Shown here piece after piece: positions 44,811-64,000 of a stretch of DNA of 64,000 nt (position 1 is the stretch's first letter; every line of letters starts with the position of its first letter). Both the position numbers and the translations under genes were made by a program. The notes under the pieces were generated by a model. It made no database searches. It was not told the DNA's origin and worked only from the letters and a program-made list of their open reading frames with translations. The DNA is from an uncultured Lachnospiraceae bacterium (lineage in GTDB: Bacteria > Bacillota > Clostridia > Lachnospirales > Lachnospiraceae). The stretch spans positions 62,001 through 126,000 of the forward strand of contig CANSPM010000002.1 in NCBI GenBank assembly GCA_947648875.1. The letters run 5' to 3'.

Positions 44811-44833
44811 AAAAGATATGGAGGAAAAACGGA

Positions 44834-45465: not shown

Positions 45466-45488
45466 GGGTTCAGAAGTGTGGTGATGAT

Positions 45489-45764: not shown

Positions 45765-45849
45765 GGCGCCGGAGAGCGTCCGGAAGAAGTTTCCCGCAGC
45801 GGTAATATAGTTGTGGATTCCTCGCTTCTTTGATTGTCATGTAGTCCAT
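45765..45849 (-). pseudogene. Possible excisionase-like HTH N-terminus, broken
   Basis: Minus-strand ATG 45849 opens MDYMTIKEA, the usual start of small MerR/excisionase-type HTH proteins in Clostridia elements. The following sequence loses the pattern, probably by a frameshift, and ends at the relaxase fragment. Only nine residues match the pattern I know, so this is weak. The stretch 45850-46096 shows no recognisable gene. Confidence 0.25.
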
Positions 45850-46096
45850 ATTCGCACCTCAAAAATTACACAAAACACTATAAAGACATTATATGCGTCC
45901 AAGCGTCAAATATCAACAATTACTTCGCCTATAGACGATATTTTACTCGTGTTTAACTATAAATCTGGCGTTCAATAATTGTGAGCACCGGACTCATAAT
46001 TTTGTTATTTTTATAGCGCACCCCATGATTGGTTGTTCTTTTTGCGTCTTGCAGTTTCTTGACTCAATGTGGTGCTGTTCTGGGAGCATTATAAAT

Positions 46097-46333
46097 TTAT
46101 CCTCTACTCATCCTTTTTTGTGTAATCTTGAAAAATGGGGACTTTCTGTAAGGAGAGTGCAAGCTATTTGCAATGAAGGAAAGGTTGGGAATCAGCTCAC
46201 CTGACTGAATCTTCAGATACCGGTCGATGGTTCTGGGATCACAGTTATATCGCCTGGCTAATTCAGACTTATTAAACAATGAAATATCTTCCTTCGCTAA
46301 GAATGAGAAGGTGTCTTTGATGTCGTCTCGCAT
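46097..46333 (-). pseudogene. IS21-family transposase IstA, N-terminal fragment
   Basis: Minus-strand ATG 46333 opens MRDDIKDTFSFLAKEDIS, then LFNKSELARRYNCDPRTIDRYL, the HTH region of IS21-type IstA proteins (about 40 of roughly 500 residues). After YLKIQSGEL the similarity ends and the frame stops at 46097. The rest of IstA and the partner ATPase IstB are absent. It lies about 130 bases upstream of the biosynthetic cluster and points away from it. Confidence 0.7.
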
Positions 46334-46391
46334 GCGGGGTACCTCCGTAAAAAGATAATATGAATATAAACAAAAAAGATACCATTGAAAA

Positions 46392-46400
46392 TGCTATAAT
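46392..46400 (+). promoter_or_regulatory. Extended -10 promoter candidate for the biosynthetic cluster
   Basis: TG-C-TATAAT (46392-46400) is an extended -10 element. The -35 region is only A-rich (46372-46377). It leaves a leader of about 56 bases to ATG 46463, which has AAGGAG at 46451-46456. Confidence 0.5.
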
Positions 46401-46462
46401 TCCTACATTTCCGTGTCGAAACTTTATTGCATTTCGATGATATCATTTACAAGGAGTAGGCT

Positions 46463-49400
46463 ATGCAGAAAAACACGCAGAAGATTTCCATTGAGATGGT
46501 AGCAAGTTTCACATGCGATATGATGAAACCCTATATTTCGTGGTGGCTGTCAAAATATAATTGGCTGCCTTCTGTTGACGTGTTGCCTTTCGACCAGGTT
46601 CATCAGACTCTGATTGAACGAGGCTTTGACAAAACCGATAATGCCGATTTTCTTGTGCTTTTGCAAAGACTTGAGGATTATGGACGCAATGTTGAGAAAC
46701 TGTCCCAGATAAAAGAAGATATAGAATCAGGTCTGATTCAGTATAAGCAATTAATTCAAAGTTATTCCGGAAATGCCAAATTGATGATAGGTTTATTTGA
46801 CCTGTCTGACAGAGTGGAAAAATACGGTGAAGAAATACAAAATTATTTTAAAGAAGCAAATGATGAATTTGCCGCATTTCTATTTTCATTATATAATATA
46901 ATTGTTCTTGATTTCAGAAACATCAAAGATGATTATCTGATAACTCGGGAATATGACGAGCTTGCATTTAAATTGGGAGTTCTTCCCTTTACAGATGAAT
47001 ATTTGATTTCTGCAGCAACTCTTGTTTCAAGAAAGATTGTTGCGTATTCAATCGCACCTCACAAGGTGATTGTTGTTGACTGTGACAACACTTTGTGGAA
47101 GGGTGAATGTGCCAACAATACGGCAGAAATTACATCCGACTATCTTATTTTCCAGAAGTATCTTTTACAAAAGAAAAATGAAGGTTTCCTGCTTGCTATA
47201 TGCAGCAAGAATAATAGTGCCGATGTTGAGAACTTCTTTGCCGCCGGAGAAAACATTCTTAGCATGAGTGATTTTGCTGCCTGTAGAATTAACTGGGACG
47301 CAAAATCCGAGAACATCCGGAGTATGGCGACAGAACTGAATCTCGGCCTGGATTCCTTTGTGTTCTTTGATGACAGTGCCCATGAATGTCTGGAAGTAAT
47401 GAACGCGCTTCCTCAGGTACTTACTTCAAGATTCCCTTCAGACAGCAGGGCTATAGGGGATTATCTCAAACATATCTGGGCATTGGATAAAATCAATGTT
47501 ACAGCCGAGGATTCGGTGAGAACACAGTTGTATCAGCAGGAGCGTGAGAGGAAGGAGCTTTCGGTTTCTGTAATATCAATGGATGAGTATATCGAGAAGT
47601 TATCCATGAAGGTATATATTAGTCCCATTGAGGAGAAAGATACTGACCGCGTAACTCAGTTGATCAATCGAACCAATCAGTTCAACCTTAATTCGGTAAG
47701 AAAAAACAAAGAGCAGTTGCTTTCTTTCCTGGAGGGAGAAGGCAATGCAGGATATATAGTTCATTGTAAAGACCGGTATGGAGATTACGGCATATCCGGT
47801 GTAATTTTGCTGTCTGAAAATGAGGACAGCCTTGTACTTGATACATTTCTTTTAAGCTGTAGAGTACTGGGAAGAAGAGCTGAAAATGCGGTTTTATCTT
47901 ATCTTCTTTCACTTTGCGAGAAAAAAGGCTGTAAGAAACTTATAGCCGGATATGTTGACAACGGAAGAAATGTGCCGGTTAAACAGTTCTTGGAAAATGG
48001 CTTTTGGAACATGCATAAGGATTCCGATGCAAAACAGAATTACTGTGCCGGAACAGATATTGCAGATGAGGTAAAAAAGAGTCTTCTTAATATCGAAGTA
48101 CTTGAAGAGAGACCGGTTAAAGAGTCTGCCAAGGAGAAAACAGAGGCAACCTTTGAGCATATAGGTGTGGCTGTGAGTAACATAAAAGAGGCAGCAGACC
48201 TTTATGGCAATGCGGGTTTCCATGTCGGCAAAATTGTTACAGATTCTTACCAGCAGGCTTCTTTGTGTATGTGTACCAGACCGGGCTTCCCGGATATCGA
48301 GTTTATTGAGCCTACTGAAGAAAATGCATTTTTGCGTGACCTTTTGGAGGGAAATGCATTTAAACCTTATCATATTTGCCTTGCCGTAACGAATATTGAG
48401 AAAACACTGAGTGAACTGGCTCATAGGGGAATAGAGTACGTGGAAGTAAGCGCACCGAAACCGGCAGTTTTATTTGATATGGACAGAGTTATGTTCATTT
48501 TCATTGAAAATGTGGGCATAGTTGAATTCAGGGAAAGAAAGAATCTTTCTTCGGTTTCGCTTGGAACAAACGTGCAGATAAGCTATAAAACTACCGATTG
48601 CAGTCAGGCAATAAAGTTTCTGACGGTTTTGGGTCTTTTGATAAATGAGAAGACAAATAATGGTGTTGTTATGCAGGGAAGCGGCTATCCGCTTTTGGCT
48701 TTTAGTGAAACAGATACTGTTACGGAAAGATATAACATAGTAAATATCCTTTACGAATCGGCTTTCGGACTGGGAGAAGAATTCTTCGCAAATGGCACCG
48801 GCAATGCACTGAAGCAGAAACAGGCAGAAGAAAGAACCTATTATGAATGGGAAGTCCTGTATGATGCCAATGATGTAGGCAATTCCAATGTATTTCGTTT
48901 TGCTCTTGAAAACCATTCCGCAAGAAGGCTGTTGCAGGAATATTCGCAGCTACCGAAGGAGGAAGAAGAACTTACGGGCGATGTATGCTCTGGCATTTAC
49001 AAGCTTATCGGAATGATAATCGGACATGGTGAGCCGGATATAAAGAAGAATTTCGCGTCAAATGGCGGTAACTCACTACAGGCTCTGTCTCTTCTTACCA
49101 AGATAAACAGCAGGTATCATTTGGTGGCTTCTCTTGAAGATGTGCTGCTTAGTGATAGTTTGGAAGCCTTTGTCCGTAAGATTACGGGCGGAAGGGCAGA
49201 TGAGCAGACATATGATAAGGCCTGCGAAAATGAGGTGAGTTTTGAACATCTGGCGGAAGTTGAAAGGGTTCCTGTTACTGCAAGCCAGCAGCGTATGTAT
49301 ATGTATCAGGTGCTTAATCCGGAATCTACAGTCTACAACATGCCAAGGTGTTTGTATATTAACGGAACATTTCAAATCGATAGGCTACAGAAAGCGATAG

Positions 49401-52400
49401 AGCGGGTTCTGGAATGTAACAGAGGCCTGCGTCTCAACTTTGGGGCAGACGGCGTGGTTATATACCAGTATGAGAGAGATAACTATGAGTCTCCTCTTAA
49501 GGAGTACAGCTCGGACAAATCCACAGAGGAACTGATTGCGGATTTTATAAGACCCTTTAATCTTTCGGGAGAACTGTTGCTTCGTGTTGAGGTGGTACAT
49601 AAGGCTGAAGGAAGAACCTTGTTTTTGTTTGATGTCCATCACATTCTTGTTGACGGATCGTCTCTTGCATCAATCATAAATGACATATTGAGTGTATATA
49701 ACGGCAAAACGATTCACACATCAGAGTACGATATGATGGATTATGCCCTTTACACTAGTAAGACATATGGCGGGGATGAAGAATACTGGAAGAAATTATA
49801 CGGAGAGTCACTACCCGATACAGCTTTACCGGCAGACAGTAATCTGTATTCGAAGAATACCTTCAGAGGAAGGAAGAAACTGTTTACGGTAGAGAATAGT
49901 GTTACTGAAAATGTATACAATATTGCAGACAGATTGGGAGTATCGTCCAATGCGGTTTTGTTTGCGGCTTACAGTTTTCTTATTGCCAAATATACTGGTG
50001 AGGAAAGAGTAGTAATCATCGTTCCCTTCAGCGGCCGTGACAGAGTCGAAAGTGAAGATATTGTCGGTCTGATTATAGATACTGTACCTGTTTGTATTGA
50101 TATAGATTATAACCTTGAAACAGATGAATTTATTAAGTATGTCAACGGCGTGCTTGTTGAGAGCTACGTACACAGACATTTTCCCTATGAATGCTTTGGA
50201 GACGGCTCTTTCAGACTTGCATATATTATGCAGAATATGGACAGGCTGGATTTTGTATCCTCAAACATTTACTGGGATGAGTTAAAGACAGATGAGTTTA
50301 TTCTTTCTCCTATAGACTTTGAAGAGGGAAGTTCAAAATACGATATTTCCTTTGAGGTGTCTGAACATGCAGGCGAAATGAAAGTCAGCATCGAGTATTG
50401 TACAGACTTATTTGAGGAGAAAACCATTGAGAATCTGTTCGGAAGATTTGTAAAGATTTGCGCAAAAGAATGTACTTCCGAAAGTAGAAAACTAAAGGAC
50501 ATTTCCCTTGCGGGAGACATTGAGGAATGTATCCTTAAGGGAGAACAAAAGAAATATGAAATTTCCACTGTAGTGGAAGGATTGGTTGGGATTGCGGAAG
50601 CATACCCGGACAGAATTGCCGTATGTGACGCAGAGAACAGAAAGATATATAGGGAGTTGCTTGCGGGAGCTAAAAATATCGCAGCATATCTTGTTAAATC
50701 CGGAGTGAAAAAGGGTGATATAGTAGCGGTTTTGGCTGACAGAAGCGCAGAGGTTGCCGAAATGCTTTTTGGTGTAATGATGGCAGGGGCTGCTTATCTG
50801 CCTTTGTCAAAGGAATATCCGGAAAGTCGTATACGCAAGATTCTTTCTGCTTCAGGTGCAAAGCTGGTTCTGAGTGATGCAGAGGTTTTACAGGCAGATG
50901 TGCAGGAGGTTTTATACGGTGAAGCGATCGTACCGGTAACAGGAGATACAGAACTTCCGTCCCTGGATGAAAATGACAGAGCATATGTTATATATACATC
51001 CGGAACGACCGGGGAACCAAAGGGCGTTCAGATATTGCATAAGGGTATTCTCAATTATGCCATGTGGAGAATTGAGAACTACGGCCTGACACAGGAAGAT
51101 TCGGCACTTGAATTGCTGCCCATGAGCTTCGACGGCTTCTGCTCAAATTTTTATTCAACACTGTTATCGGGCGGAAAAATTGTAATGGTTGATGACAATC
51201 ACTGGCGTGATTTTGAATATGCGGGAAAAACCATCGCAGCGCAGAAAGTAACAAATATCAGTTTACTTCCAACAATGTACAGAGGCATTTTGGAAAATAA
51301 TGCAAAAGAGCAGCTTGAAAGTTTGAGACTGGTTGTTCTTGCGGGAGAAAAGACTGACAGAAATCTGATTAAGAAAAACAGACAGATGACCCCGGATGTT
51401 GTTCTTGTAAATGAGTACGGAGCTACAGAAAACACGGTTACCACAACCGCAAATATCGGAATGGATGAGACAAACTGTGATTCGGTGGGTGGTCCCATAG
51501 CCAACAATTATGTATGCGTGCTTGATCCGTTCAAAAATGTACTTCCAAGCGGAATGTGTGGCGAACTTGCCGTTTGGGGCAGGGGCCTTTCAAGCGGATA
51601 TCTTAATGACAAAGAACTTACCGATAGGAAATTCTGTCCTAACCCACAGCTTGTGAAAACAGGTGAAAGGCTCGGTAACGGTACCTTGTACAGAACCGGT
51701 GACAGAGTCAGAATCAATGTCAATAATCAGGTAATTTTTATCGGTAGAATTGACAATCAGGTTAAGTATCATGGTTTCAGAATAGAATTGTCAGAAATAG
51801 AGCAGACCGCATTAAGAATACCCGGTATAAATGCGGCGGTAGCTTTAGTGACAGATAAGGATGAAAAGCAAAAGCTTTGCTTATATATCAGTGGAGATGA
51901 TATCCCCGACAGTCGAAAACTGGAGCATTTCCTGAGGGAAAGCCTGCCACCTTATATGGTGCCTTCATATTATTCGGTAGTGAACAGCATTCCCATGACA
52001 GGAAACGGAAAGGTTGATGTTAAGAAACTTTCCGATAATGAATTGCTTTTACTTGGTTATGGGGAGAAGTCTTTACCGGAAAATGATACAGAACAGAGAC
52101 TGTGGAATATTTGCACCGCAATTCTTAATAATGATGATATTGGAATGGATATCGGATTTATGAGTGCGGGAGGACAGTCTTTGGATGTTGCCAGACTTAA
52201 GAAAGCCATTTTCGATGAGTTTGGGGTTGATCTTGAAATGAGTTTTATCTTCAGAGCAGATTCCTTAAGAAAAATTGCGAAAGCGATTGAGAAGGAAGGT
52301 ACTCATCAAAATGATGGGATTTATCATTTCGAATATGACCGTATGGTTCCGATGTCATCGGCTCAAAAGCGAATATTCTTGCTGGAGCAGATAGAGGATG

Positions 52401-55400
52401 TGGGTAAGAGTTATCATATCCCGGTTTTCTTTAAGGTAAGTGAGAGTCTGGATATCGAGAGATTGGAAAAATCGCTAACGGAAATGGTTAATAATTATGA
52501 GATTCTTAGAACAACCTTCGATTTTGTCGATGGGGAGCCGGTTCAGATAATTAACGATCCATATAAGGTTACCCTTGAGAAAACAGATTGTTTATTTGAG
52601 AAAATCGATTATGAAGCATGGTCGAAAAAATTCGAACTTACACAGTTGCCACTTTTTAGAACTGTATTGTTTGGCGACAATGTTCTTATGTTTGAGTTTC
52701 ATCATGTTATCACAGATGGTGCTTCAATAAAGATGTTTACGGAGGAGCTGGCCGAAAGATATAACGGGCAGAGTGTACAGACATCGCTATATCAGTATGC
52801 GGAGTATGTACTTAATGAAAGAGAAATTAAAAAGAATAAAGAGAAGAATAGGGAATACTGGCACGATATATTTAAAAACCTTCCCGAGGCATTAAATTAT
52901 CCCACCGATTATACAAGGAAAGAAGTTGTGGGACATGAGGGCAAATGTATTGTCTTCAAAGCAGATGAAGGACTTACAAAGCGAATTGCCGATTGTGCCG
53001 CATCAATGAATACAACAGAGTTCTCACTTTTGCTGGCAGCCTATAATGTTATGCTTTCCAAAATATCCGGTGCTGTGGATGTGGTGACGGGAATTCCCAC
53101 ACTTGGAAGAAATAATGCAATATATTCCGATATTCAGGGCATATTTATCAATGTTCTTGCCATAAGAAGCATTATTGAAGGGAAACTTAAGGTGAAGGAT
53201 TATGTGACTAAGTTTTCCGAAAACCTTATTGGCGCTTACGAGCACGAAGATTATCCCTTTGAGGAACTGGTAGACGAGCTTTCGATTTCAAAGGTTACCA
53301 ATCGCAAACCGCTTTTTGATGTGATGTTTGTAATGAGAGACTTCGACAAGATGCGGTTACCACTTGAGGATTGTAATTGTGAAGTAATAGATTATATGCC
53401 GGATGTGGCTAAGTACGATTTTACCCTCACTGTGGCTAATGACGAATGTGTCATATTTATGCTTCAGTACAATACAGACTTATTTGAAGAGTCTACGGCC
53501 TGGGGCGTGCTTGATAAATACTTAAAAGTGTTGGAGCAGATGACAGAGCATCCGGATGAGGCGCTGGAGGATATTTCAGTCATTTCAGAGGATGATGAGA
53601 AGGATATCGAGAAATACGAATTGGGAAGAAAAGTTCCCGGTGACTTTGAGTCGGTTATAGAAGCAATCTGTAGGAATGCATCGGACAGGCTCCCATTAAC
53701 GGCAGTTGTCAGTGACGGGAGAGAGATTACCTACGACGAATTACTGGCAGAAACTAAAGAAATAAAGGCCGGATTTAAGGCTTTGGGAATCGGAAGCGGT
53801 GATGTTGTTGCGATAGCAATGGAGCCCTGTGTCGAACTGATTGAATGTGCATTGGCAATTATGTGGCTTGGTGCTGCTTACCTTCCTTTGGATGTTGCCA
53901 CTCCACTCGCAAGAATCGAATATTGTGTAAAGGATTCAAAGGCAAAGATTCTTATTGCTGATGAAGATAACACCATAGAGGTCGAGGGAATCAAAACCCT
54001 TACCCTTTCGGATATTATGAAGGATGCGGACTGGAATTACAGTCTCGGGGAAAACAATCAAACAGACAGCCTTCCCGCAGGAGATGATGTCGCATACATT
54101 ATATATACTTCGGGAACAACAGGAGTCCCCAAAGGCGTTATGGTTACACAAAGCAACCTTGCCAACTATACAGGCTGGTTTATACGAGAGAACAAGCTGA
54201 ACCCGGGAGTATCATCGGCACTGCTTTCAGGATTTAATTTCGATCTGGGCTACAGCGTTGTATATCCCACACTTGCCATGGCGGGCACGTTGCATTTGCC
54301 TAAGAAGAACGATTACCTGGAAAAGAGCACTGCACTGAAATATATCAGGGAGCAGGGCATTGATTATCTGAAAATGACACCAACTCTGTTTTCATTCCTC
54401 TTTGCGGATTGCGAGGAAGAACTTGGAAAACTCAGACTGATTGTACTTGGTGGAGAAAGCCTTAATGCAGATGAAGTTAACGCATTTATGGACAGATACC
54501 CGGGAATTGAAATAATGAACCACTATGGTCCGACGGAAACTACCGTTGGAACAGTATTTAAAAAGCTTGTTCCGGGGATGTATATTATCCATAATATGAA
54601 CCCCATAATCGGAAGGCCCATAGATAACAGTGCCGTGTACATTCTTGATAAGAATGGCAAGCGTGTACCCTATGAAACTCAGGGTGAAATATGTGTAGCC
54701 GGGAAAGGCATTTCAAAGGGTTACCTTAACACTGCCGAAACCGGAAGATTTACCGGAAATCCTTACAGCAATGAATATGACAGAATTTACAAAACCGGAG
54801 ATTACGGTTACAGACTTCCAAGCGGTGAGATTGTATTTGTCGGCAGAAAAGATAAGCAGGTTAAGATTCACGGTTACAGAGTGGATATCAATGAGATAAG
54901 ACAAAATCTTCTTGAATACGAGAAGATTGACGCTGCACTGGTGGTTGTGGATGAGAGTTCCGGAATTGAGAAGCGTTTGCTCGCATTCTATATTTCCCGG
55001 GAAGATATACCTGAAAAGGAACTGAGACATTTCCTGAGACAGAGGGTTGCGGAATACATGATTCCTGTAGCATTTACAAAAGTTGATGCATTTCCTATGA
55101 ATAAAAACGGCAAGCTGGATATGGAAAAGCTGCTGAGTCTGGTATGTATCCGGGAAAATGTTACAGATGAGAAACTGAGCAATAACGAGAATATCATAAA
55201 GGATATATGGGCTGAATTGCTGGGAAGAACAGACATCATGCTTGATGATAATTTCTTCGATGTGGGAGGAAATTCAATTCTTCTGATTAAGTTACAGACA
55301 TTGCTTAAGGACAAAATCGGACTTGATTTAAGGATGGTGGAGCTTTTTGTACATCCTACAATCGGAAGGCTTGCGGCACTTATGGAGGAACAAAGTCCGG

Positions 55401-55957
55401 TAGCGGACCTTGTAGGTCTGAAGGTGTCAGAAAAATGGTTTGATACTTCCCATAACAGCATTGGGACTGACAGTTTCTATATATCTCTGGAGGATGAAAA
55501 ATTGCAGGGAATAGAAAGACTGAATCAAAGGTTCAAGATTTCGACGGATGCGGTTTTTACGGCGGTATATGCATATATCTGGAACCAGATAACAGGGGAA
55601 AACCCTCAGTTGCCCTGGAAATGCTGCGACGGTTGCATAAGAATTTTTGACTGCGACATGGATGCGGTTGAGGATTTTGATGATTTGTTTAAGAAGGCAT
55701 ATGAAGGGCTTACATCAAAAACTTTCGCGGATGAAGTTACATTTATGAAGCGAGAAGACAGACTATATTTTGTTGGAGGAATGAACGGTAAAGGTCAAAT
55801 CGGTAACTTTGATATATTTGTCGGAATTACAGAGGATGAAAATGAATTAAAAATATCGGTATATTTTGATACAAACAGAGTCAATTCGGACAATGTCAGG
55901 GAATTGCTGGGACAGACAGGAGATGTACTGGAATACATTCTTAATTCATATTCCTAA
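46463..55957 (+). CDS. NRPS megasynthetase: FkbH-VOC-T-C-A-T-C-A(Asp)-T-half C
   Basis: A 3164-residue assembly-line enzyme. It opens with an FkbH unit: helical N-terminus (1-195), HAD phosphatase with DCDNTLW (Asp206; 196-340) and GNAT-like domain (385-520; RTNQFNL, FLLSCRVLGRR). FkbH units load glyceryl from 1,3-bisphosphoglycerate. A VOC domain (about 562-690) and an unassigned VOC-like stretch (695-820) precede T1 (Ser871). Then C1 (HHILVDG, His1059-1060), A1 (1372-1870; YTSGTTG), T2 (Ser1906), C2 (HHVITDG, His2080-2081), A2 (2395-2885), T3 (Ser2938), and the second half of a C domain (2975-3164). My alignment to the PheA pocket gives A1 DGSSVAEVTK (unassigned) and A2 DLSKVGHVGK (Asp). 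No thioesterase. It is the first gene of the cluster; the next starts 32 bases on. GC is much lower than in the housekeeping genes. Confidence 0.93.
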   Translation: MQKNTQKISIEMVASFTCDMMKPYISWWLSKYNWLPSVDVLPFDQVHQTLIERGFDKTDNADFLVLLQRLEDYGRNVEKLSQIKEDIESGLIQYKQLIQSYSGNAKLMIGLFDLSDRVEKYGEEIQNYFKEANDEFAAFLFSLYNIIVLDFRNIKDDYLITREYDELAFKLGVLPFTDEYLISAATLVSRKIVAYSIAPHKVIVVDCDNTLWKGECANNTAEITSDYLIFQKYLLQKKNEGFLLAICSKNNSADVENFFAAGENILSMSDFAACRINWDAKSENIRSMATELNLGLDSFVFFDDSAHECLEVMNALPQVLTSRFPSDSRAIGDYLKHIWALDKINVTAEDSVRTQLYQQERERKELSVSVISMDEYIEKLSMKVYISPIEEKDTDRVTQLINRTNQFNLNSVRKNKEQLLSFLEGEGNAGYIVHCKDRYGDYGISGVILLSENEDSLVLDTFLLSCRVLGRRAENAVLSYLLSLCEKKGCKKLIAGYVDNGRNVPVKQFLENGFWNMHKDSDAKQNYCAGTDIADEVKKSLLNIEVLEERPVKESAKEKTEATFEHIGVAVSNIKEAADLYGNAGFHVGKIVTDSYQQASLCMCTRPGFPDIEFIEPTEENAFLRDLLEGNAFKPYHICLAVTNIEKTLSELAHRGIEYVEVSAPKPAVLFDMDRVMFIFIENVGIVEFRERKNLSSVSLGTNVQISYKTTDCSQAIKFLTVLGLLINEKTNNGVVMQGSGYPLLAFSETDTVTERYNIVNILYESAFGLGEEFFANGTGNALKQKQAEERTYYEWEVLYDANDVGNSNVFRFALENHSARRLLQEYSQLPKEEEELTGDVCSGIYKLIGMIIGHGEPDIKKNFASNGGNSLQALSLLTKINSRYHLVASLEDVLLSDSLEAFVRKITGGRADEQTYDKACENEVSFEHLAEVERVPVTASQQRMYMYQVLNPESTVYNMPRCLYINGTFQIDRLQKAIERVLECNRGLRLNFGADGVVIYQYERDNYESPLKEYSSDKSTEELIADFIRPFNLSGELLLRVEVVHKAEGRTLFLFDVHHILVDGSSLASIINDILSVYNGKTIHTSEYDMMDYALYTSKTYGGDEEYWKKLYGESLPDTALPADSNLYSKNTFRGRKKLFTVENSVTENVYNIADRLGVSSNAVLFAAYSFLIAKYTGEERVVIIVPFSGRDRVESEDIVGLIIDTVPVCIDIDYNLETDEFIKYVNGVLVESYVHRHFPYECFGDGSFRLAYIMQNMDRLDFVSSNIYWDELKTDEFILSPIDFEEGSSKYDISFEVSEHAGEMKVSIEYCTDLFEEKTIENLFGRFVKICAKECTSESRKLKDISLAGDIEECILKGEQKKYEISTVVEGLVGIAEAYPDRIAVCDAENRKIYRELLAGAKNIAAYLVKSGVKKGDIVAVLADRSAEVAEMLFGVMMAGAAYLPLSKEYPESRIRKILSASGAKLVLSDAEVLQADVQEVLYGEAIVPVTGDTELPSLDENDRAYVIYTSGTTGEPKGVQILHKGILNYAMWRIENYGLTQEDSALELLPMSFDGFCSNFYSTLLSGGKIVMVDDNHWRDFEYAGKTIAAQKVTNISLLPTMYRGILENNAKEQLESLRLVVLAGEKTDRNLIKKNRQMTPDVVLVNEYGATENTVTTTANIGMDETNCDSVGGPIANNYVCVLDPFKNVLPSGMCGELAVWGRGLSSGYLNDKELTDRKFCPNPQLVKTGERLGNGTLYRTGDRVRINVNNQVIFIGRIDNQVKYHGFRIELSEIEQTALRIPGINAAVALVTDKDEKQKLCLYISGDDIPDSRKLEHFLRESLPPYMVPSYYSVVNSIPMTGNGKVDVKKLSDNELLLLGYGEKSLPENDTEQRLWNICTAILNNDDIGMDIGFMSAGGQSLDVARLKKAIFDEFGVDLEMSFIFRADSLRKIAKAIEKEGTHQNDGIYHFEYDRMVPMSSAQKRIFLLEQIEDVGKSYHIPVFFKVSESLDIERLEKSLTEMVNNYEILRTTFDFVDGEPVQIINDPYKVTLEKTDCLFEKIDYEAWSKKFELTQLPLFRTVLFGDNVLMFEFHHVITDGASIKMFTEELAERYNGQSVQTSLYQYAEYVLNEREIKKNKEKNREYWHDIFKNLPEALNYPTDYTRKEVVGHEGKCIVFKADEGLTKRIADCAASMNTTEFSLLLAAYNVMLSKISGAVDVVTGIPTLGRNNAIYSDIQGIFINVLAIRSIIEGKLKVKDYVTKFSENLIGAYEHEDYPFEELVDELSISKVTNRKPLFDVMFVMRDFDKMRLPLEDCNCEVIDYMPDVAKYDFTLTVANDECVIFMLQYNTDLFEESTAWGVLDKYLKVLEQMTEHPDEALEDISVISEDDEKDIEKYELGRKVPGDFESVIEAICRNASDRLPLTAVVSDGREITYDELLAETKEIKAGFKALGIGSGDVVAIAMEPCVELIECALAIMWLGAAYLPLDVATPLARIEYCVKDSKAKILIADEDNTIEVEGIKTLTLSDIMKDADWNYSLGENNQTDSLPAGDDVAYIIYTSGTTGVPKGVMVTQSNLANYTGWFIRENKLNPGVSSALLSGFNFDLGYSVVYPTLAMAGTLHLPKKNDYLEKSTALKYIREQGIDYLKMTPTLFSFLFADCEEELGKLRLIVLGGESLNADEVNAFMDRYPGIEIMNHYGPTETTVGTVFKKLVPGMYIIHNMNPIIGRPIDNSAVYILDKNGKRVPYETQGEICVAGKGISKGYLNTAETGRFTGNPYSNEYDRIYKTGDYGYRLPSGEIVFVGRKDKQVKIHGYRVDINEIRQNLLEYEKIDAALVVVDESSGIEKRLLAFYISREDIPEKELRHFLRQRVAEYMIPVAFTKVDAFPMNKNGKLDMEKLLSLVCIRENVTDEKLSNNENIIKDIWAELLGRTDIMLDDNFFDVGGNSILLIKLQTLLKDKIGLDLRMVELFVHPTIGRLAALMEEQSPVADLVGLKVSEKWFDTSHNSIGTDSFYISLEDEKLQGIERLNQRFKISTDAVFTAVYAYIWNQITGENPQLPWKCCDGCIRIFDCDMDAVEDFDDLFKKAYEGLTSKTFADEVTFMKREDRLYFVGGMNGKGQIGNFDIFVGITEDENELKISVYFDTNRVNSDNVRELLGQTGDVLEYILNSYS

Positions 55958-55989
55958 AGGAACATCACAGCAGATTGGATGGATAAAAA

Positions 55990-58900
55990 ATGAAAAGTAT
56001 ACCAAGTTTATCTGAAATATCGGGAAAGAGTGCAACTGTTATTCACAGTGAAGGCACTGTTAACGGTCAGGAAGATATTGCTGTAATAGGCATGGATATG
56101 CGCCTTGGAACAGCTGACAATGCAAAGGAATACTGGAAGGCAATCAGAGAAGGAAAGGATTGTATTATTGATTTTCCGACTGCCAGAAAGAAAGACGCTG
56201 ATGATTATTTCAGTGCTCTTGATCCGGAAAAACAGCCGAAGTACAAACAGCTTGCATATCTTGGCAGTGTTGACGAATTTGACTATTCATATTTTAAGAT
56301 TTCCAAAAGGGAAGCGGATTTGATGGATCCCAATCAGAGACTTTTTCTTCAGTGCGCATTTCACGCAATTGAAGATGCGGGATATCTTGGAACAATTGAA
56401 GGCAGCAATACGGGAGTGTATTTTGCCAATAAAAGTTCTCTTTCAAATGTATATTACGACTTCGTGGATGTGATGGAGCATGAGAATCTGGATATGGCGG
56501 CAGTGGGCAATAAGGTCCCCGTTACCGCAGCAAGAATCTCGTACATTCTTGACCTTCACGGACCGAATATGATTCTTGATACAGCATGTTCGGGTTCGCT
56601 TGTGGCCCTTCATCTTGCATGTCAGGCACTTCGAGAAGGTGACTGTGACAATGCGCTGGTGGGAAGCGTGAGACTTGATTTGCTGCCCCTTGTCAGTGAA
56701 TTCAACATAGGAATAGAGGCAAGTGACGGAAGAACAAGAACCTTTGATAACGGTTCCGACGGAACAGGCGGTGGCGAAGGTGTTGCGGCAGTCTTCCTAA
56801 AGCCGTTATCCAAAGCAATCGCGGATAAGGACCATATATATGCGGTCATAAAAGGAACCGGTGTTAATCAGGATGGCAGAACAATAGGAATTACGGCACC
56901 AAATTCCGTGGCTCAGTCGGAAGTAATAAAGAAGACCTGGAAGAAGGCCGGAGTCAATATATCCAAAGCAGGATACATAGAAGCACACGGAACGGGAACG
57001 AAGCTCGGTGATCCAATTGAAATAGAAGGCATTAAGAAGGCATTTGCAGGCTATACGGACAAGAAGAGATTCTGTGGTATAGGTTCCGTTAAAGCCAATA
57101 TTGGTCATTTGGACAACTGTGCCGGAATGGCGGGAATCATAAAGGTAATACTGATGATGAATAACAGGGTTATTCCACCCCTTGCTCATTTTCAGGTACC
57201 AAATTTAGAAATCGATTTCTGGAATTCACCCTTATATATTCCACAGAAGGCTATGGAATGGTCCTGTGACAGCGTAAGGTACGCAGGCGTAAGTGCCTGG
57301 GGATTGAGCGGTACAAATGCCCATGCGGTGCTGGGAGAATATATCTGTCAGGACAAGCCGGTAGAAGTAAAGGGAAAACTTCCGTTTATACTTTCCGCAA
57401 AGACCCAGGAGGCTTTGCGGGAGTATGGGAAAGCATTTGTAGAATATCTGGATGACAGTTCCGCAGGGCTTTATGAGATATGTTATACACTCGCTTTCAG
57501 GAGAAAGCGTTATGAGAAACAGATTGTATTTAAGGTGGAATCGAAGGAGGAACTGAGTTCCCTTCTCAAAGATTATTTGAAGGGCGAAGCAACGGGTAGT
57601 TCCGAGATTGGAGACCTTGAAAGCTGTTTTGCTACAAAAGTAAATAATCAGAGTCTTCCTCTTTATCCATTTGCCAGAGAAAGGTGCTGGGTAAAGAAGC
57701 CTGAGGCGGAGCAGGTGAAGGAAAAAAGCGCTGCCTTAAGTATTGAAGACTCTGTTGCAGGAATATATGAGAAGGTACTGGGAAGCAGTAACATCGACAG
57801 AGATACCGGATTCTTTGAACTGGGAGGCGATTCGCTCATTGCCTTAAAGATTGTGAATACCCTTGCTTCCGAATTGAATGTCAGCGTCAGCATTTCGGAT
57901 ATTCTGGTAAAGGGCAGTATCAATGCCGTAACAAGAATATGCAGGGATAAGACAGGTAACAGTGACGATTTGTTCCTTTACCTGAAGAAGGCGGAAGAAT
58001 TGCCGGCATATCCGCTTTCGTCACCTCAGAAAAGAATGTTTGTTATGGACTGGTACAGAAATATCGGTTCCGTATACAACATGAACAGAGCCTTTATGGT
58101 TGACGGACCTCTTGATATAGAAAAAGCAAAATCTGTATTTATGAGTATTGTTGAAAGACACGAATCATTAAGAACCACATTTGATTTTATAGAGGATGAG
58201 CCTGTTCAGATTATTCATAATGATTCCGTTTTTGAGGTTGAGGTATCCAATGTGACAGAGGATGAGGTATCGGAAAAGGTAATGGCATTCTTCAGAAAAT
58301 TTGACCTGAAGGAAGCGCCTCTTTTCAGAGTGGGAATCCTTCATCTGAATGATATGAAGAACGTAATCATAATTGATATGCACCACATTATTTCCGACGG
58401 AACGTCAACAGGTGTAATCATGAATGAGTTTGTTGCTCTCTACGAAGGAAGAGAACTGCCAAAGCTGCCGTTCCACTACCGGGATTACACAATGTGGCAA
58501 ATAGAATGTGATAAGTCGGGCAGAATAAAACCTCAGAGGGATTACTGGCATAAGGTATTTGAGGACAGTATTCCGGTATTGCAGATGCCATATGATTTTG
58601 AGCGTCCTGCGGAACGTGATTTCAAGGGAACAAGGGTTGAATCTGTTTTGGAGGCCGACATGACCTCAAAACTTAAGAAACTTGCGGGAACCTGCAATAC
58701 TTCACTTCATATTCTGCTTTTGGCCGCTTACTACATACTTCTTGAGAAATACAGCAATCAGGAGGATCTGGTTGTAGGAGTAGCAACCTCGGGAAGAAAC
58801 TCGAAGCTTATAGAGAATAATGTTGGAATGTTTGTAAATACACTTCCAATAAGAGCATTTCCAAAGGGTGGTATGAGCCTGGATGAGTTTATAAAAGAAC

Positions 58901-59331
58901 TTACGGATATTTCCTATAAAGCCTACAGAAATCAGGATTATCAGCTTGACGATCTGATTGAAAGTATGAACTTCAAGAGAGACGGTTCAAGGAATCCGCT
59001 TTTTGATGCAGTATTTACAATAACCAAGTATGAAGAAGTAAAGATGAAGGAACTGAAGTTCAGCGTTCTTGAGTATGAAATGATAAAGGCTCGTTTCGAT
59101 ATCATTATGACCATGTGTGATTATGTGAATCATATAGATTTCGGTATTACCTATGCGACATCTCTTTTCCTTAAGGAAACGGTAATTGGAATGCTGGATG
59201 ATTACGTGACAATACTGGAAGCATTCATTGATGACAGAAGTGTCAGAATAGAAGACCTGAAGTTGAGAGACTTCAGTGATGCCGGAGAAAGCGATGAGTT
59301 CTCTCTGGACGGAGTGAATTTTAATTTTTAG
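55990..59331 (+). CDS. AT-less PKS-NRPS protein: KS-T-C
   Basis: A 1113-residue polyketide-peptide hybrid. The ketosynthase (about 28-455) has Cys200 in DTACSGSL, His333 in EAHGTGTKLGDP and His373 in NIGHLDN, so it is complete. A KS-AT adapter follows (LPFILSAKTQEAL, about 465-560), and then directly the post-AT linker pattern LPLYPFARERCW; the acyltransferase itself is missing. This is the trans-AT layout, so malonyl must be loaded by a separate enzyme that is not in the window. There is no ketoreductase, so the beta-keto group should stay. T (Ser615 in LGGDSL) and a C domain (about 670-1095; HHIISDG, His798-799) follow. It would extend the peptide from the upstream protein by two carbons and then join it to the next amino acid. 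Confidence 0.93.
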   Translation: MKSIPSLSEISGKSATVIHSEGTVNGQEDIAVIGMDMRLGTADNAKEYWKAIREGKDCIIDFPTARKKDADDYFSALDPEKQPKYKQLAYLGSVDEFDYSYFKISKREADLMDPNQRLFLQCAFHAIEDAGYLGTIEGSNTGVYFANKSSLSNVYYDFVDVMEHENLDMAAVGNKVPVTAARISYILDLHGPNMILDTACSGSLVALHLACQALREGDCDNALVGSVRLDLLPLVSEFNIGIEASDGRTRTFDNGSDGTGGGEGVAAVFLKPLSKAIADKDHIYAVIKGTGVNQDGRTIGITAPNSVAQSEVIKKTWKKAGVNISKAGYIEAHGTGTKLGDPIEIEGIKKAFAGYTDKKRFCGIGSVKANIGHLDNCAGMAGIIKVILMMNNRVIPPLAHFQVPNLEIDFWNSPLYIPQKAMEWSCDSVRYAGVSAWGLSGTNAHAVLGEYICQDKPVEVKGKLPFILSAKTQEALREYGKAFVEYLDDSSAGLYEICYTLAFRRKRYEKQIVFKVESKEELSSLLKDYLKGEATGSSEIGDLESCFATKVNNQSLPLYPFARERCWVKKPEAEQVKEKSAALSIEDSVAGIYEKVLGSSNIDRDTGFFELGGDSLIALKIVNTLASELNVSVSISDILVKGSINAVTRICRDKTGNSDDLFLYLKKAEELPAYPLSSPQKRMFVMDWYRNIGSVYNMNRAFMVDGPLDIEKAKSVFMSIVERHESLRTTFDFIEDEPVQIIHNDSVFEVEVSNVTEDEVSEKVMAFFRKFDLKEAPLFRVGILHLNDMKNVIIIDMHHIISDGTSTGVIMNEFVALYEGRELPKLPFHYRDYTMWQIECDKSGRIKPQRDYWHKVFEDSIPVLQMPYDFERPAERDFKGTRVESVLEADMTSKLKKLAGTCNTSLHILLLAAYYILLEKYSNQEDLVVGVATSGRNSKLIENNVGMFVNTLPIRAFPKGGMSLDEFIKELTDISYKAYRNQDYQLDDLIESMNFKRDGSRNPLFDAVFTITKYEEVKMKELKFSVLEYEMIKARFDIIMTMCDYVNHIDFGITYATSLFLKETVIGMLDDYVTILEAFIDDRSVRIEDLKLRDFSDAGESDEFSLDGVNFNF

Positions 59332-59361
59332 CGGGAACTACAGGACAACAGGAGGTTATAA

Positions 59362-61005
59362 ATGAGTAAAAGAATTGATTGTTTTCTTATAGGTCATAAT
59401 GAAATGAAGTTTAGTGAATATGAAAAGATGGTCAGATCAATGGGTGAGACTTCGGGAGCTTACAGGGATTTGAATTACAGTTTCCTGACTTACAAAAATC
59501 ACCTTTATACACTGCCGGATCTGATTAATTCATATTCCGTATTTGACAGCAGTGATTTGTGCATGGGGGATACCTTCAGTGCCGGAATCGCATATCTGGG
59601 AACATTCCTTCACCGTGCGGGACTTACATTTGACTATGTTAATTCTTTCCAGGAGGAAAAGGATTACATCAGGGAAATACTTGAAACCTGTGAAGTTGGT
59701 GTAGTGGGAATCACAACCACATTATACGTTTCCGTATTCCCGATTCTTGAGATTATGAGCTTTATAAAGGAAATCAAGCCTGATGTAAAGGTTGCTGTGG
59801 GAGGTCCCTTCGTATCTACCAACATAAGAACACAGGCTGATACAACGGTTCAGTATGTATTCAGACAGATAGGAGCAGATTTCTACATCAACAGCTCTCA
59901 GGGTGAGAAGGCACTGGCAGATCTTACAGAGGCATTAAGGGACAATAAGCCCACTGACTGTATCAATAATATCTACTACAAAAAAGGCGATGAATATGTG
60001 GTTTATTCATCGGAGCGTGAGAACAATATTCTTGAAAATAACATGGTTGACTGGAGCCTGTATAAGGACAGAGTAGGAGAATATGTTGCATTAAGAACAG
60101 CCATTTCGTGTCCTTTCTCATGTTCCTTCTGCGGTTTTCCCCAGCATGCGGGCAAATACCAGACAACAAGTTTAAAGGCAATTGAATATGAGCTGGACAA
60201 ACTCAACGAAATAGGAAAAACACATTGTGTTCATTTCATAGACGATACCTTTAATGTTCCACCGGAGCGTTTTAAGGATTTAATGCGAATGATGATAGAC
60301 AAGAAGTATGACTTCAAATGGCATTCATATTTCAGATGTCAGTTTGCTGATGAAGAAATGGTTTCCCTTATGAAGGAAAGCGGATGCGAAGGTGTATTTC
60401 TGGGAATCGAATCCGGCAGTCAGGAAATACTTAACAACATGAATAAGCGTGTTACCGTTGAGGAATTCTATCGCGGTCATAAGCTTCTCAACGATTACGA
60501 GATTCTGACATTTGACTCATTTATTACGGGATTCCCGGGAGAGACAAAGGAAACGGTAGATGCAACCATTAAATTTATAGAGGAGATGAAGCCTACATTC
60601 TATCGTTCACAGATGTGGTACTGTGAGGCGATTACACCAATCTATCAGGAAAGAGAAAAATACGGCATAGTAGGTTCAAACTTCGAGTGGACACACAACA
60701 CCATGTCTGCAACAGAGGCTATGGATGAAATAGACAGAATCATCTGTACAATCAAGAACTCCATTTGGCTTCCTCAGTACAACTTTGACATGGACAGCGT
60801 ATACCATCTCATTCACAGAGACATGCCTATGGATCAGATAAAGAATATCGTCAATACATTTGCAGACGGTATCAGGGAAAAGGTCGCAGACAAATCAAGA
60901 ACAGAGGTCAGCGAAGAAGTAATTAACAGATTTAAAGCCGCATGTATGCAGGAAGAAGTAAAGGCGGAAGAGGATTCACTCTTTGGCGGTGATTTTGCAT
61001 TTTAA
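59362..61005 (+). CDS. Cobalamin-binding radical SAM methyltransferase, PhpK-like
   Basis: A 547-residue class B radical SAM enzyme. A B12-binding domain lies in the N-terminal half (about 70-200; VGVVGITTTLYVS, VAVGGPF) and the SAM core has CPFSCSFC with cluster cysteines C250, C254 and C257, followed by FIDDTFNVPPERF and GIESGSQEIL. The N-terminus (IDCFLIGHNEMKFSEYEK, SGAYRDLN) matches what I recall of PhpK-family proteins, named for a P-methyltransferase of phosalacine biosynthesis. Members in NRPS clusters of Firmicutes are annotated by that name although no phosphinate chemistry is apparent here. I infer C-methylation of an unactivated carbon or a related radical step. It sits between the two NRPS genes with an excellent AGGAGG site, so it is a cluster member. 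Confidence 0.88.
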   Translation: MSKRIDCFLIGHNEMKFSEYEKMVRSMGETSGAYRDLNYSFLTYKNHLYTLPDLINSYSVFDSSDLCMGDTFSAGIAYLGTFLHRAGLTFDYVNSFQEEKDYIREILETCEVGVVGITTTLYVSVFPILEIMSFIKEIKPDVKVAVGGPFVSTNIRTQADTTVQYVFRQIGADFYINSSQGEKALADLTEALRDNKPTDCINNIYYKKGDEYVVYSSERENNILENNMVDWSLYKDRVGEYVALRTAISCPFSCSFCGFPQHAGKYQTTSLKAIEYELDKLNEIGKTHCVHFIDDTFNVPPERFKDLMRMMIDKKYDFKWHSYFRCQFADEEMVSLMKESGCEGVFLGIESGSQEILNNMNKRVTVEEFYRGHKLLNDYEILTFDSFITGFPGETKETVDATIKFIEEMKPTFYRSQMWYCEAITPIYQEREKYGIVGSNFEWTHNTMSATEAMDEIDRIICTIKNSIWLPQYNFDMDSVYHLIHRDMPMDQIKNIVNTFADGIREKVADKSRTEVSEEVINRFKAACMQEEVKAEEDSLFGGDFAF

Positions 61006-61023
61006 AGAAATTGGTGAGAAATA

Positions 61024-64000
61024 ATGAATCAGTCAGAATTAAACATATTATTGTCTTCTAAAGAATTCAGATTCAGACGTGTGTTTTGGAGTGATTATCT
61101 GGTATTGGTAGATTCAAATACACTGATTAAGCAATACGGGCTTGAATCTACAGGAACCGATTATTCCATGATAAGTCTCAAAACCGATTCTTCTGTTGCG
61201 CAGATGATTGACAGAATCAGCGGAAAGAATAAGATGCTTACCTATGTTATTTTCTTAAGTCTTGTGGAGTACCTTCTTCACAGATATACGGGAGAGAAGC
61301 AGGTGGTAGTTTTTGTTCCAGAGCAGAACAGTAAATATGGATTTAACAGAAGTCTTCCTCTATTGACGGAAATCAGAGGGGAAATGTCATTCCGTGAGTA
61401 TCTGGGTGAAGTTAAGAACAGACTGGCAGAGGTGATAAAGAATCAGGAATACCCCATTGAACAGGTGCTTGAGCATCTGGATGAAGGTAAGGAAGGGAAA
61501 GTAGAAAACCTGAGCAATGTAACCTGTACAATCGGCGAGCCTGACTGTAATTACGACAGTGATTTCGTATTCGATATGAGTGATAAGGACGGAAGCTACC
61601 AGCTGACACTTAAATACAGAAAGGGCAGAGCTGACAGATTATTTGCGGAGACAATGCTTCGACATATAGAGGTGCTGATTAAAGCGTGCCTTTCAAATGC
61701 GGGAATACTTCTTAAGGATATTGATTACCTTACCAATGAGGAAAAAGCATTTTGGAATGAGCAGTATAACAAGCCATACGGCAATGTGGAAGAAACCGTT
61801 ATTACATTGTTCGAAAAGAAGGCCTGCGATAATCCCGACAGCGTGGCTGTTGTATCGGGAGATGAAGAGATTACCTATGGTGAGCTCAACAGAAGAGCCA
61901 ACACTCTGGCACACCGGATAATGGAGAATGGCATTAAAAAAGGTGATGTTATAGGAATCATTATGGACACCACCGCAGAGATTGTAATCTCAATGCTTGC
62001 ATCCTTAAAGGCCGGAGCAATATATCTTCCCATTAATGATTCATATCCTATGCAGCGCATTGAATACATGCTGGGAATGGGAAATGCGTCACTGGTTATG
62101 GGACTGGGAGAGACTATCATTTCCGGATACAGATATATAGATGTAACGGATGAGAACATATATACTTCGGGAAATTGCACCAATCCGGATGTTGAAGTCA
62201 CTTTGGATGACTGTGCATATATGATATTCACTTCGGGCTCAACGGGAAAACCCAAGGGTGCCGTTATACGTCATAAGGGACTGGCCAATTATATTACATG
62301 GGCAGCTAAGGTCTATGCAGGCACTAAGGAGTGCTGCGTACCCCTTTACAGTTCAATTTCATTTGACCTTACCGTGACATCAATATATATGCCTCTTATT
62401 ACCGGAGGAAAGGTAATAGTATATGGCGGTTCAGACAAGGGAGCGTTAATCAGAACAATTCTAAATGACAACAGAGTCAATATTATGAAACTGACCCCGG
62501 TCCATATGCTGATACTTGATGAAATAGACTGCTCTGAAAGCAGAATTGAGAAGTTCATTGTGGGTGGTGATAACCTTAATGTGGACATTGTGGAGCGTAT
62601 AACTGCAAAGTTCGGAAGGAAAGTCGATTTTTATAACGAGTACGGTCCCACAGAGGCAACCGTAGGTTGTATGATTCATAGATATGACAAAGAAATCGAT
62701 AAGTCAGGTTCTGTATCCATAGGAATTCCTGCAGACAATACAAGAATATTCCTGCTGGATGAATATGGCAAATGTGTTCCCTACGGTGTATCCGGAGAAA
62801 TGTATTTGGCGGGCTTCGGACTGGCAAGGGAGTACTACAACAACCCGGAAGCTACCCAAAGCAGTTTTATAGAAGAAAATGACCTTGATGAGGGAAAAAT
62901 ATATAAAACCGGTGACTATGCATTTATGAAATCCACCGGGGAAATGGAATTCCTGGGAAGACGTGATAATCAGATTAAGTTAAAGGGTTACAGAATCGGT
63001 CTGGGAGAAATTGAAAATTCACTTTCTGCTTCGGAGAATGTGGGAAGTTGTGTAGTAAGGTGTGTTGAAACTGAACCCGGTCAGAAACAGCTTTGTGCAT
63101 TCCTGACGGTAATCGGCGACAAAAATGCTTCGGATTTCAGAGAGTTCCTGAAGACTACTCTTCCGGATTATATGATACCAGCTCATTTTTACAGAGTAGA
63201 TGCAATTCCCGTTAACCAGAACGGAAAGGTTGATGTGGATTCACTGCTTCTTCAGATGGTGGATTTGGATGTTAAGGAAGAGTATGTTGCTCCAACCACT
63301 CCCACTGAAGAAATGTTGGTTTCAATATATGAGGAAATTCTCGGAAAAGAAAACATCAGTATTCTTGATGACTTCTTTGCATTGGGCGGTGATTCCATTA
63401 AGGCAATCAGAGTTGCAGCCAAGTTGTATAAGATGAATTATCAGGTGGGAATAGAAGAGATATTTATGTATCCGCAGATTCAGTCCCTTAGCAGACATCT
63501 GCAAAAATTCGAAGCGGTTGTAGAGGACTTGAGCGGTGAAATAATGCTTTCACCCATCCAGAGGTATTTCTTTGAAAGAAAACTTAATAATCCAGACGGT
63601 TATTTCCAGTCCATGGCAATCAAACTCAGTGATAATATATCGCCATTAATGCTGACTCGGGTATGGGACAAACTTGTTGAAATGCATGATGCCTTCCGTA
63701 TGAGATTTGAAAATACAGACGGTGATATCAGATGCTTCTATTCGGAAGACGGTAATAATTATTACCACAAAGAACAGAGTCTTGATGAGGAGGAACTGAT
63801 AAAGAATATTACAGTTTTCGGAAAACGGCTTTCGGATAAATTGAGCATTGAAAGAGGACCTCTTGCAGCCTGGGATTATATCAAGACAGAAAACGGTAAT
63901 TACATGTTTGTAATGGTTCATCATCTCATAATTGACGGAGTTTCATGGAGAGTCATTCTGGATGATATGGATATGCTGCTCAGTGATATTAACGCCGAGG
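61024..64000 (+). CDS. NRPS: half C-A(Asn)-T-E (3' partial)
   Basis: Open from ATG 61024 to the window edge (992 codons seen). Residues about 1-235 are the second half of a C domain, without HHxxxDG, as at the end of the first NRPS. The adenylation domain (about 255-745) has FTSGSTGKPKG near residue 402, and FDLTVTS, MKLTPVH, NEYGPTEATVG; my pocket reading is DLTKIGEVGK, close to the Asn code DLTKLGEVGK. T carries LGGDSIKA (Ser791), the form usual before an epimerase. The last segment (about 820 onward) is an epimerisation domain with MVHHLIIDGVSWR (His966-967), cut by the edge. The product residue is probably D-Asn. The start follows GGTGAG, 18 bases after the radical SAM gene. The true end and any further modules lie outside. 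Confidence 0.92.
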   Translation, partial: MNQSELNILLSSKEFRFRRVFWSDYLVLVDSNTLIKQYGLESTGTDYSMISLKTDSSVAQMIDRISGKNKMLTYVIFLSLVEYLLHRYTGEKQVVVFVPEQNSKYGFNRSLPLLTEIRGEMSFREYLGEVKNRLAEVIKNQEYPIEQVLEHLDEGKEGKVENLSNVTCTIGEPDCNYDSDFVFDMSDKDGSYQLTLKYRKGRADRLFAETMLRHIEVLIKACLSNAGILLKDIDYLTNEEKAFWNEQYNKPYGNVEETVITLFEKKACDNPDSVAVVSGDEEITYGELNRRANTLAHRIMENGIKKGDVIGIIMDTTAEIVISMLASLKAGAIYLPINDSYPMQRIEYMLGMGNASLVMGLGETIISGYRYIDVTDENIYTSGNCTNPDVEVTLDDCAYMIFTSGSTGKPKGAVIRHKGLANYITWAAKVYAGTKECCVPLYSSISFDLTVTSIYMPLITGGKVIVYGGSDKGALIRTILNDNRVNIMKLTPVHMLILDEIDCSESRIEKFIVGGDNLNVDIVERITAKFGRKVDFYNEYGPTEATVGCMIHRYDKEIDKSGSVSIGIPADNTRIFLLDEYGKCVPYGVSGEMYLAGFGLAREYYNNPEATQSSFIEENDLDEGKIYKTGDYAFMKSTGEMEFLGRRDNQIKLKGYRIGLGEIENSLSASENVGSCVVRCVETEPGQKQLCAFLTVIGDKNASDFREFLKTTLPDYMIPAHFYRVDAIPVNQNGKVDVDSLLLQMVDLDVKEEYVAPTTPTEEMLVSIYEEILGKENISILDDFFALGGDSIKAIRVAAKLYKMNYQVGIEEIFMYPQIQSLSRHLQKFEAVVEDLSGEIMLSPIQRYFFERKLNNPDGYFQSMAIKLSDNISPLMLTRVWDKLVEMHDAFRMRFENTDGDIRCFYSEDGNNYYHKEQSLDEEELIKNITVFGKRLSDKLSIERGPLAAWDYIKTENGNYMFVMVHHLIIDGVSWRVILDDMDMLLSDINAE

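Follow-up and report, generated by a model that had tools for sequence, protein, structure and literature searches.

A hybrid cluster of nonribosomal peptide synthetase (NRPS) and, probably, trans-AT polyketide synthase (PKS) genes, which is real and probably unstudied, was found at positions 46463-64000 of the DNA stretch analysed here (64,000 nucleotides, contig C2:62001-126000, further called the window). It comprises a genuine half condensation domain, a condensation C-lobe without the HHxxxDG motif, placed before the third adenylation domain, and the same half domain recurs in the neighbourhoods of PhpK-like genes in other genomes, which is an addition to the initial annotation of this DNA. 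The domain order predicted there, FkbH-VOC-T-C-A-T-C-A-T-(half C) / KS-T-C / B12 radical SAM enzyme / half C-A-T-E, was borne out by domain models and motifs, although the terminal half C of the first protein is weak.

The assembly line of the window

The four reading frames of the line have no internal stops, lie on a single strand and are spaced by 18-32 bases. They encode proteins of 3164 aa (46463-55957), 1113 aa (55990-59331), 547 aa (59362-61005) and 1296 aa (61024 to L003:914, to the right of the window). Their features are as follows.

46463-55957, + strand: NRPS loading and extension protein, 3164 aa, FkbH-VOC-T-C-A1-T-C-A2-T-(weak half C) (Pfam, TIGR01686, motifs)
47060-47998, + strand: FkbH domain of HAD type, predicted to load a glyceryl unit (TIGR01686 2.2e-75; DCDNTLW at aa 206)
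48149-48553, + strand: VOC/glyoxalase-I-like domain with H/E/H/E pattern (Pfam 4.4e-13; glyoxalase I chains 2qh0 7.7e-11 and 3hdp 1.9e-10)
49268-50536, + strand: condensation domain C1 (HMM 1.5e-127, C1 itself being among the HMM seeds; HHILVDG)
50588-52057, + strand: adenylation domain A1, code DGSSVAEVTK (Pfam, code mapping)
52331-53608, + strand: condensation domain C2 (HMM 7.4e-146, this domain itself being among the HMM seeds; HHVITDG)
53648-55147, + strand: adenylation domain A2, code DLSKVGHVGK, Asp-like (Pfam, code mapping)
55415-55954, + strand: terminal half C of the first protein, C-lobe-like, weakly supported (Pfam 0.088; low-confidence AlphaFold2 model)
55990-59331, + strand: KS-T-C protein, KS without AT (Pfam; KS active-site Cys and both His motifs)
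59362-61005, + strand: B12-binding radical SAM methyltransferase, PhpK-like (TIGR04479 628.6 bits; CPFSCSFC, of the form CxxxCxxC)
61024-64000 within the window, + strand: NRPS protein C-lobe-A3-T-E, 1296 aa, ending at L003:914 (Pfam, motifs)
61048-61746, + strand: truncated condensation domain, C-lobe only, HHxxxDG N-lobe missing (HMM 2.8e-17; PF00668 1.1e-12)
61789-63249, + strand: adenylation domain A3, code DLTKIGEVGK, Asn-like (Pfam, code mapping)
63535-64000, + strand: start of the epimerisation domain, which runs past the window end (HMM 5.7e-33; HHLIIDG at aa 966)

The Pfam and TIGR01686 scores of the four proteins are far beyond chance: Condensation 2.2e-161, AMP-binding 2.9e-151 and Glyoxalase_4 4.4e-13 in the first, ketoacyl-synt 9.6e-63 and Condensation 4.8e-100 in the second, Radical_SAM 1.6e-24 and B12-binding 1e-10 in the third, and AMP-binding 4.5e-70 in the fourth. 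In the motif scan, covering reading frames 1, 2 and 4 and the next C-A-T gene, HHxxxDG is kept in all five full C or E domains and GGxS in all six T domains. The C-A-T modules with catalytic motifs belong to NRPSs, the KS has its active-site Cys and no in-line AT, as in trans-AT PKSs, and the FkbH domain with its HAD motif shares one protein with a carrier domain, as in FkbH loading modules; the earlier description of an FkbH-NRPS hybrid whose KS has no AT is upheld. The H, E, H and E of the VOC domain, aligned over glyoxalase I structures, are presumably metal ligands.

The adenylation codes come from our own mapping, in which nine positions are read and the final K is appended by a script; as a check, the Gln code was recovered in four other A domains. 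The codes of A2 and A3 resemble those for Asp and Asn, in agreement with the earlier predictions, and A4, in the C-A4-T gene to the right of the window, reads DLYDLGLIYK. The DG..x.E code of A1 resembles a Tyr code from Bacillus.

The condensation HMM was trained on 16 full C domains; of its 450 positions, the segment preceding A3 aligns only to 185-446, and in PF00668 it covers 186-453. As to the end of the first protein, the AlphaFold2 model has low confidence (pLDDT 54, pTM 0.54) and its input alignment contained C domains; the best PDB matches of the model are CmnI (1.6e-05) and the TycB3 E domain (2.0e-05) at TM of about 0.5, and E2/CAT acyltransferases are also among them. An AlphaFold2 model of aa 542-871 was set aside because of its pLDDT of 32.

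The probable island, its edges and a candidate acyltransferase

On the left, the cluster is preceded by a chromosomal gene and a junction zone.

43121-43720, + strand: spoIIM, left chromosomal boundary of the island (PF01944 5e-16; xerD-like gene next in 7 of 13 relatives)
43977-46300, no strand assigned: apparent degraded mobile-element remnants (by reading) and lower-GC junction (GC 0.35-0.37 at 45000-46999)

Four ORFs tried between spoIIM and the cluster gave zero Pfam matches. Among the mobile-element remnants there is also a short ParM-like start with an early stop at 44830-44905 (by reading). PADLOC returned weak radical-SAM matches only, no tRNA was found in pieces L003 and L062, and a plasmid search gave nine records of 25.6-27.4% identity.

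As contig C2 ends at 140826, the remaining 14.8 kb (L003) were also examined, and the layout of the initial annotation, which stood, could be extended to the contig end. To the right of the window lie genes for C-A4-T (1055 aa) and for a BtrH_N-like protein, which stays below its model cut-off (27.1 bits against 29.7). Next come genes for YcaO, an ACP, a SAM methyltransferase and an aldo/keto reductase with 4Fe-4S, further two YydG-like radical SAM proteins (163.5 and 158.2 bits, both below the model cut-off of 300) and, between them, a protein without family, which reads GT-like, and a second B12 radical SAM enzyme. The extreme end of C2 is a truncated BtrH-like reading frame. The PDB sequence searches run for the GT-like and the BtrH-like protein were uninformative, and among the genes scanned in the visible island (L003 and C51) none was recognised as coding for an exporter.

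It is possible, but doubtful, that a part of this right arm (the YydG-like proteins, the second B12 radical SAM enzyme, the GT-like protein and perhaps YcaO) constitutes a separate pathway which shares the island. The spacing is wide before the ACP gene (420 bases) and at a later point (265 bases), as against 1-56 bases elsewhere, and this and a GC of 0.37 in L003 versus 0.41 in the window part favour such a division, whereas all the genes lie on the same strand and a second B12 radical SAM enzyme is also found near PhpK-like genes in genomes G166, G278, G535 (contig C63) and G323. The island YcaO (L003:5106-6905) scores 181.7 bits with the S12-methylthiotransferase accessory model (cut-off 700); a UPF0004/radical SAM protein, RimO- or MiaB-like, is encoded on the same contig at window positions 34014-35429. 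YcaO was tried as a marker of sister clusters and rejected: its relatives of 27-33% identity in 6 other genomes of the 391 of the class sample stand in six loci (4.0-4.7 kb each, judged by eye) in which no NRPS gene was recognised.

The acyltransferase absent from the line was looked for in the same genome with the Acyl_transf_1 profile, which matched in two places, on C21 and at the extreme start of contig C51, where a discrete AT with a GHSVG motif is encoded (C51:58-1266). Behind it lie genes for a type II thioesterase and a PPTase and some transposase pieces; next come a carboxyltransferase together with a biotin carrier, which could supply malonyl units, a BtrH-like gene (24.2 bits, cut-off 29.7) and a xerD-like gene (named by reading). 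The truncated BtrH-like frame at the end of C2 is a paralogue of the BtrH-like gene C51:7980-8984 (score 122, best of 2000 shuffles 45), and GC on C51 amounts to 37-45% in genes up to 8984 and to 52-55% in the xerD-like gene and the next one. A search for spoIIM over 60 genomes of the family gave 14 matches including our own, hence 13 relatives were compared. A xerD relative stands downstream of spoIIM, on the same strand and within the 1.5 kb flank, in seven of these, a fragment of it in an eighth, and it is absent beside spoIIM in five, the congener G022 among them; two congeners have no xerD match at 1e-40, so that the spoIIM-xerD step rests on the wider family. From the synteny in relatives, GC and the BtrH-like paralogue we infer a single island between spoIIM and xerD, with the gap between C2 and C51 in between. 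The island was probably acquired horizontally. The initial annotation was right that the KS has no in-line AT; this is probably explained by the discrete AT on C51, which probably belongs to the same cluster.

The PhpK-like enzyme and the half condensation domain

The third protein reaches 628.6 bits with TIGR04479 against a curated cut-off of 600 and so is a member of the PhpK family by score, as annotated initially. P-methylation was set aside as the main reading, the cluster being without phosphonate genes: no phosphonate or phosphinate gene, PEP mutase included, occurs among the cluster genes scanned in the window, L003 and C51. The genome has a sole PEP mutase match (414 bits, with a cytidylyltransferase-like part), on contig C15 beside genes reading as PhnW, PntC and Ppd, that is in a 2-AEP-type operon (names by reading). 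P-methylation is unlikely because the PEP mutase match is restricted to this 2-AEP-like operon, and C-methylation is proposed because the scanned cluster genes lack PEP mutase. A true P-methyltransferase making a phosphinate peptide would agree with the family score and with the existence of a PEP mutase match in the genome; in view of the place of that match in the C15 operon and of the phosphonate-free cluster genes, it is considered highly improbable.

Few genomes have a relative of the enzyme: in the family sample 3 of 299 (1e-40) and in the class sample 6 of 391 (1e-80), our own included in both, and in the phylum sample our own only, 1 of 398 (1e-60). A wider contig scan added one contig of 4.3 kb, JAKJFV010000175.1 (Spirochaetes MAG UR.bin61), where three ORFs of IS66-type appearance directly precede a PhpK-like gene fragment, 93-94% identical, which is a matter of misbinning or transfer. 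The surroundings of all 12 distinct loci, our own among them, were inspected, three of these being on contigs of 12.7-23.9 kb. In the tree, our enzyme groups with G586 and three G493 copies (support 0.98), while another clade comprises the second copy of G166, G278 and G535:C63, beside A domains with the Gln code DAQDLGVVDK. The A codes beside PhpK-like genes differ between loci, hence no common substrate follows for these enzymes. G278, G166 and G535 have a common set of genes, namely A (Gln code), PhpK-like, an unknown protein of about 650 aa, a VOC-like protein (by reading), an aminotransferase-like PLP enzyme, a second B12 radical SAM enzyme and a BtrH-like protein, which possibly makes a methylated Gln-derived unit. 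NusG/LoaP-like proteins (by reading) are encoded near the PhpK-like clusters of G166 (L012, about 3243-3764), G278 (L014, about 10269-10787) and G323 (L102, about 322-879); none was recognised in the visible part of our own island.

The same truncation to the C-lobe is seen before A domains in G586, G493:C14, G493:C234, G166 and G323 (in the last at 30.2 bits with Pfam, cut-off 30.6), so a C-lobe-A protein occurs in 6 of the 12 PhpK-like neighbourhoods, all of which had been picked by PhpK. The C-lobe-A gene directly follows the PhpK-like gene in three of the 12 (our own, G586 and G493:C14). In our own locus, G586, G166 and G493:C234, an earlier protein ends in, or consists of, a full C domain, and one or two further genes separate it from the C-lobe-A gene; in G493:C14 the corresponding earlier protein is a C-KS that ends differently, and G323 shows no full C. 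The PhpK-like protein of G493:C14 itself ends in a C-lobe-like part (HMM 7.2e-06; Pfam 8e-05, below cut-off). Contrary to strict pairing, the PhpK-like gene of G493:C234 sits between full C modules, and in the other six loci the C-lobe is absent (G495, G535:C93 and G493:C108, a contig of 12.7 kb) or leaves weak traces only, before the Gln-code domain of the second G166 copy, G278 and G535:C63 (best HMM 1.9e-03; Pfam noise). In favour of the pathway preferred below are the small loci of G495 and G535:C93, where a PhpK-like gene is accompanied by an A domain and an ACP-like gene (by reading); they are near-identical and of one genus, and therefore count as one observation.

These data suggest, but do not prove, that the C-lobe is a docking platform for the radical methylase. 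We tentatively propose, at rather less than even chances, that C-lobe-A-T and the PhpK-like enzyme form an unrecognised trans-tailoring module, in which a condensation domain devoid of its N-lobe would recruit the methylase for C-methylation of a carrier-bound amino acid before condensation. Truncated condensation domains as an architecture may already be described in the literature. If the C-lobe does recruit the methylase, a portable rule for directing radical C-methylation to a residue of choice in peptide assembly lines would be at hand, and members of a family named after P-methylation would be suggested to work on carbon.

Two other targets compete with the Asn adjoining the PhpK-like gene. 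Methylation of the residue loaded by A1 enters as a rival since the A1 code type, DGSSVAEVTK, is common to the C-lobe-A domains of G586 (DGTITAEVVK), G166 (DGTSVAEIGK) and G323 (DGISIGEMAK), all in PhpK-like neighbourhoods; against it, the C domain of A1 is complete and A1 itself is encoded two genes upstream, and none of the A domains with codes in the G493 contigs, G278, G535 and G495 shows its code type, which leaves it an unlikely target. Still less probable is that the enzyme makes a building block by acting on SAM or an amino acid in free form. Here the model is Orf29, a B12 radical SAM enzyme: it C-methylates SAM, and the ring of norcoronamic acid is then formed by an ACC-synthase-like PLP enzyme (accessible text of PMC7277169), and the sister clade (G166, G278, G535) stands near aminotransferase-like PLP enzymes and VOC-like proteins (by reading); the two PLP enzymes tested, of G166 and G278, reach 188 and 198 bits with the GntC model, below its cut-off of 415. 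No PLP enzyme occurs, however, among the visible island genes scanned, and the sister clade also adjoins the A domains with the Gln code.

Proposed pathway and known systems

The reading preferred here, to which we give about even chances as a whole, is that of an acquired island with an FkbH start, malonyl supply from C51, in-trans C-methylation at the C-lobe-A module and BtrH-like release. It starts from the observed domains, gene order, codes of our own mapping, truncation and recurrence of the C-lobe, and one fusion. The FkbH glyceryl unit would come from 1,3-bisphosphoglycerate. The FkbH domain would load this C3 unit onto the first T domain, and the VOC domain might isomerise, epimerise or dehydrate it. 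Module 1 would then add an unassigned, possibly aromatic residue and module 2 Asp, after which the KS would add a C2 unit with malonyl from the C51 AT, the C-lobe-A3-T-E protein D-Asn and the C-A4-T module the last residue. The PhpK-like enzyme would C-methylate, in trans, a carrier-held amino acid, most likely at the C-lobe-A module adjoining its gene, where the C-lobe may stand in for a full C domain as a scaffold. Release would be by the BtrH-like acyltransferase instead of a TE domain, as this protein is placed after the last module here and the last NRPS protein of G586 itself finishes with a BtrH-like part. The loading chemistry, the order in which the proteins act, the tie to C51, the site of methylation, the mode of release and the product are thus predictions. 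The product would be a new peptide-polyketide, its backbone being predicted as glyceryl (or a product of it)-X-Asp-C2-D-Asn-X4.

The initial annotation had found no known match for this layout, and among the matches listed from titles and abstract starts of the open-access literature no description of the combination of FkbH-NRPS, AT-less KS and PhpK-like methylase was found. Its statement that large assembly lines are rare in Lachnospiraceae should be softened: the accessible text of PMC7930024 reports trans-AT systems whose architectures differ from those of characterised PKSs in gut Lachnospiraceae MAGs (Blautia producta, Anaerocolumna and a Lachnospiraceae bacterium).

The A(Asn-like)-T-E module is reminiscent of zwittermicin and colibactin. 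In these pathways a D-Asn prodrug logic is followed; here the module is internal and its C domain truncated. The D-Asn prodrug reading was rejected, as no fused peptidase-ABC protein is present in our genome (none of 58 matches spans both parts), though G166 has one. There, a beta-lactamase-family peptidase fused to an ABC transporter (G166:C15:295280-298393) adjoins a C-A(DFTKIGEIGK, Asn-like)-T-E protein, an NRPS at G166:C15:290863-295302, which looks like zwittermicin-type D-Asn prodrug activation.

With FkbH-started lines such as those of oocydin and haterumalide, the cluster shares FkbH loading next to a carrier (accessible text of PMC4552970); it differs in that FkbH here supplies an NRPS module, with a VOC domain in line after the FkbH domain. 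Another FkbH-started line is seen in the same family as an FkbH-carrier-KS reading frame on the 4 kb contig G087:C69 (carrier by reading). The Orf29/Orf30 norcoronamic acid system, likened by description, also has a B12 radical SAM methylase in an NRPS cluster (accessible text of PMC7277169), but its partner is a PLP ACC synthase, while the PhpK-like gene adjoins KS-T-C and C-lobe-A-T-E; an ACC-synthase-like PLP enzyme was found neither beside the gene nor among the scanned L003 and C51 genes.

The PhpK family belongs to bialaphos-type pathways. Our enzyme is of the same sequence family by score (TIGR04479), with B12-binding and radical SAM domains, but it is embedded in an NRPS/PKS line whose scanned genes include no phosphonate gene. 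In the accessible text of a review on radical SAM methylases (PMC9692996), a term search found no mention of PhpK, carrier protein or nonribosomal. DscE carries out cobalamin radical SAM C-methylation of the NRPS product discodermin; it differs in having been assayed on a nonmethylated congener, i.e. post-assembly (accessible text of PMC12858407). The precedent for a carrier-bound substrate is CysS of the cystobactamid NRPS pathway, a B12 radical SAM methylase likened here by description, and the difference is the pairing with a C-lobe, which is seen in our cluster and not mentioned for CysS in the accessible text of PMC8992657.
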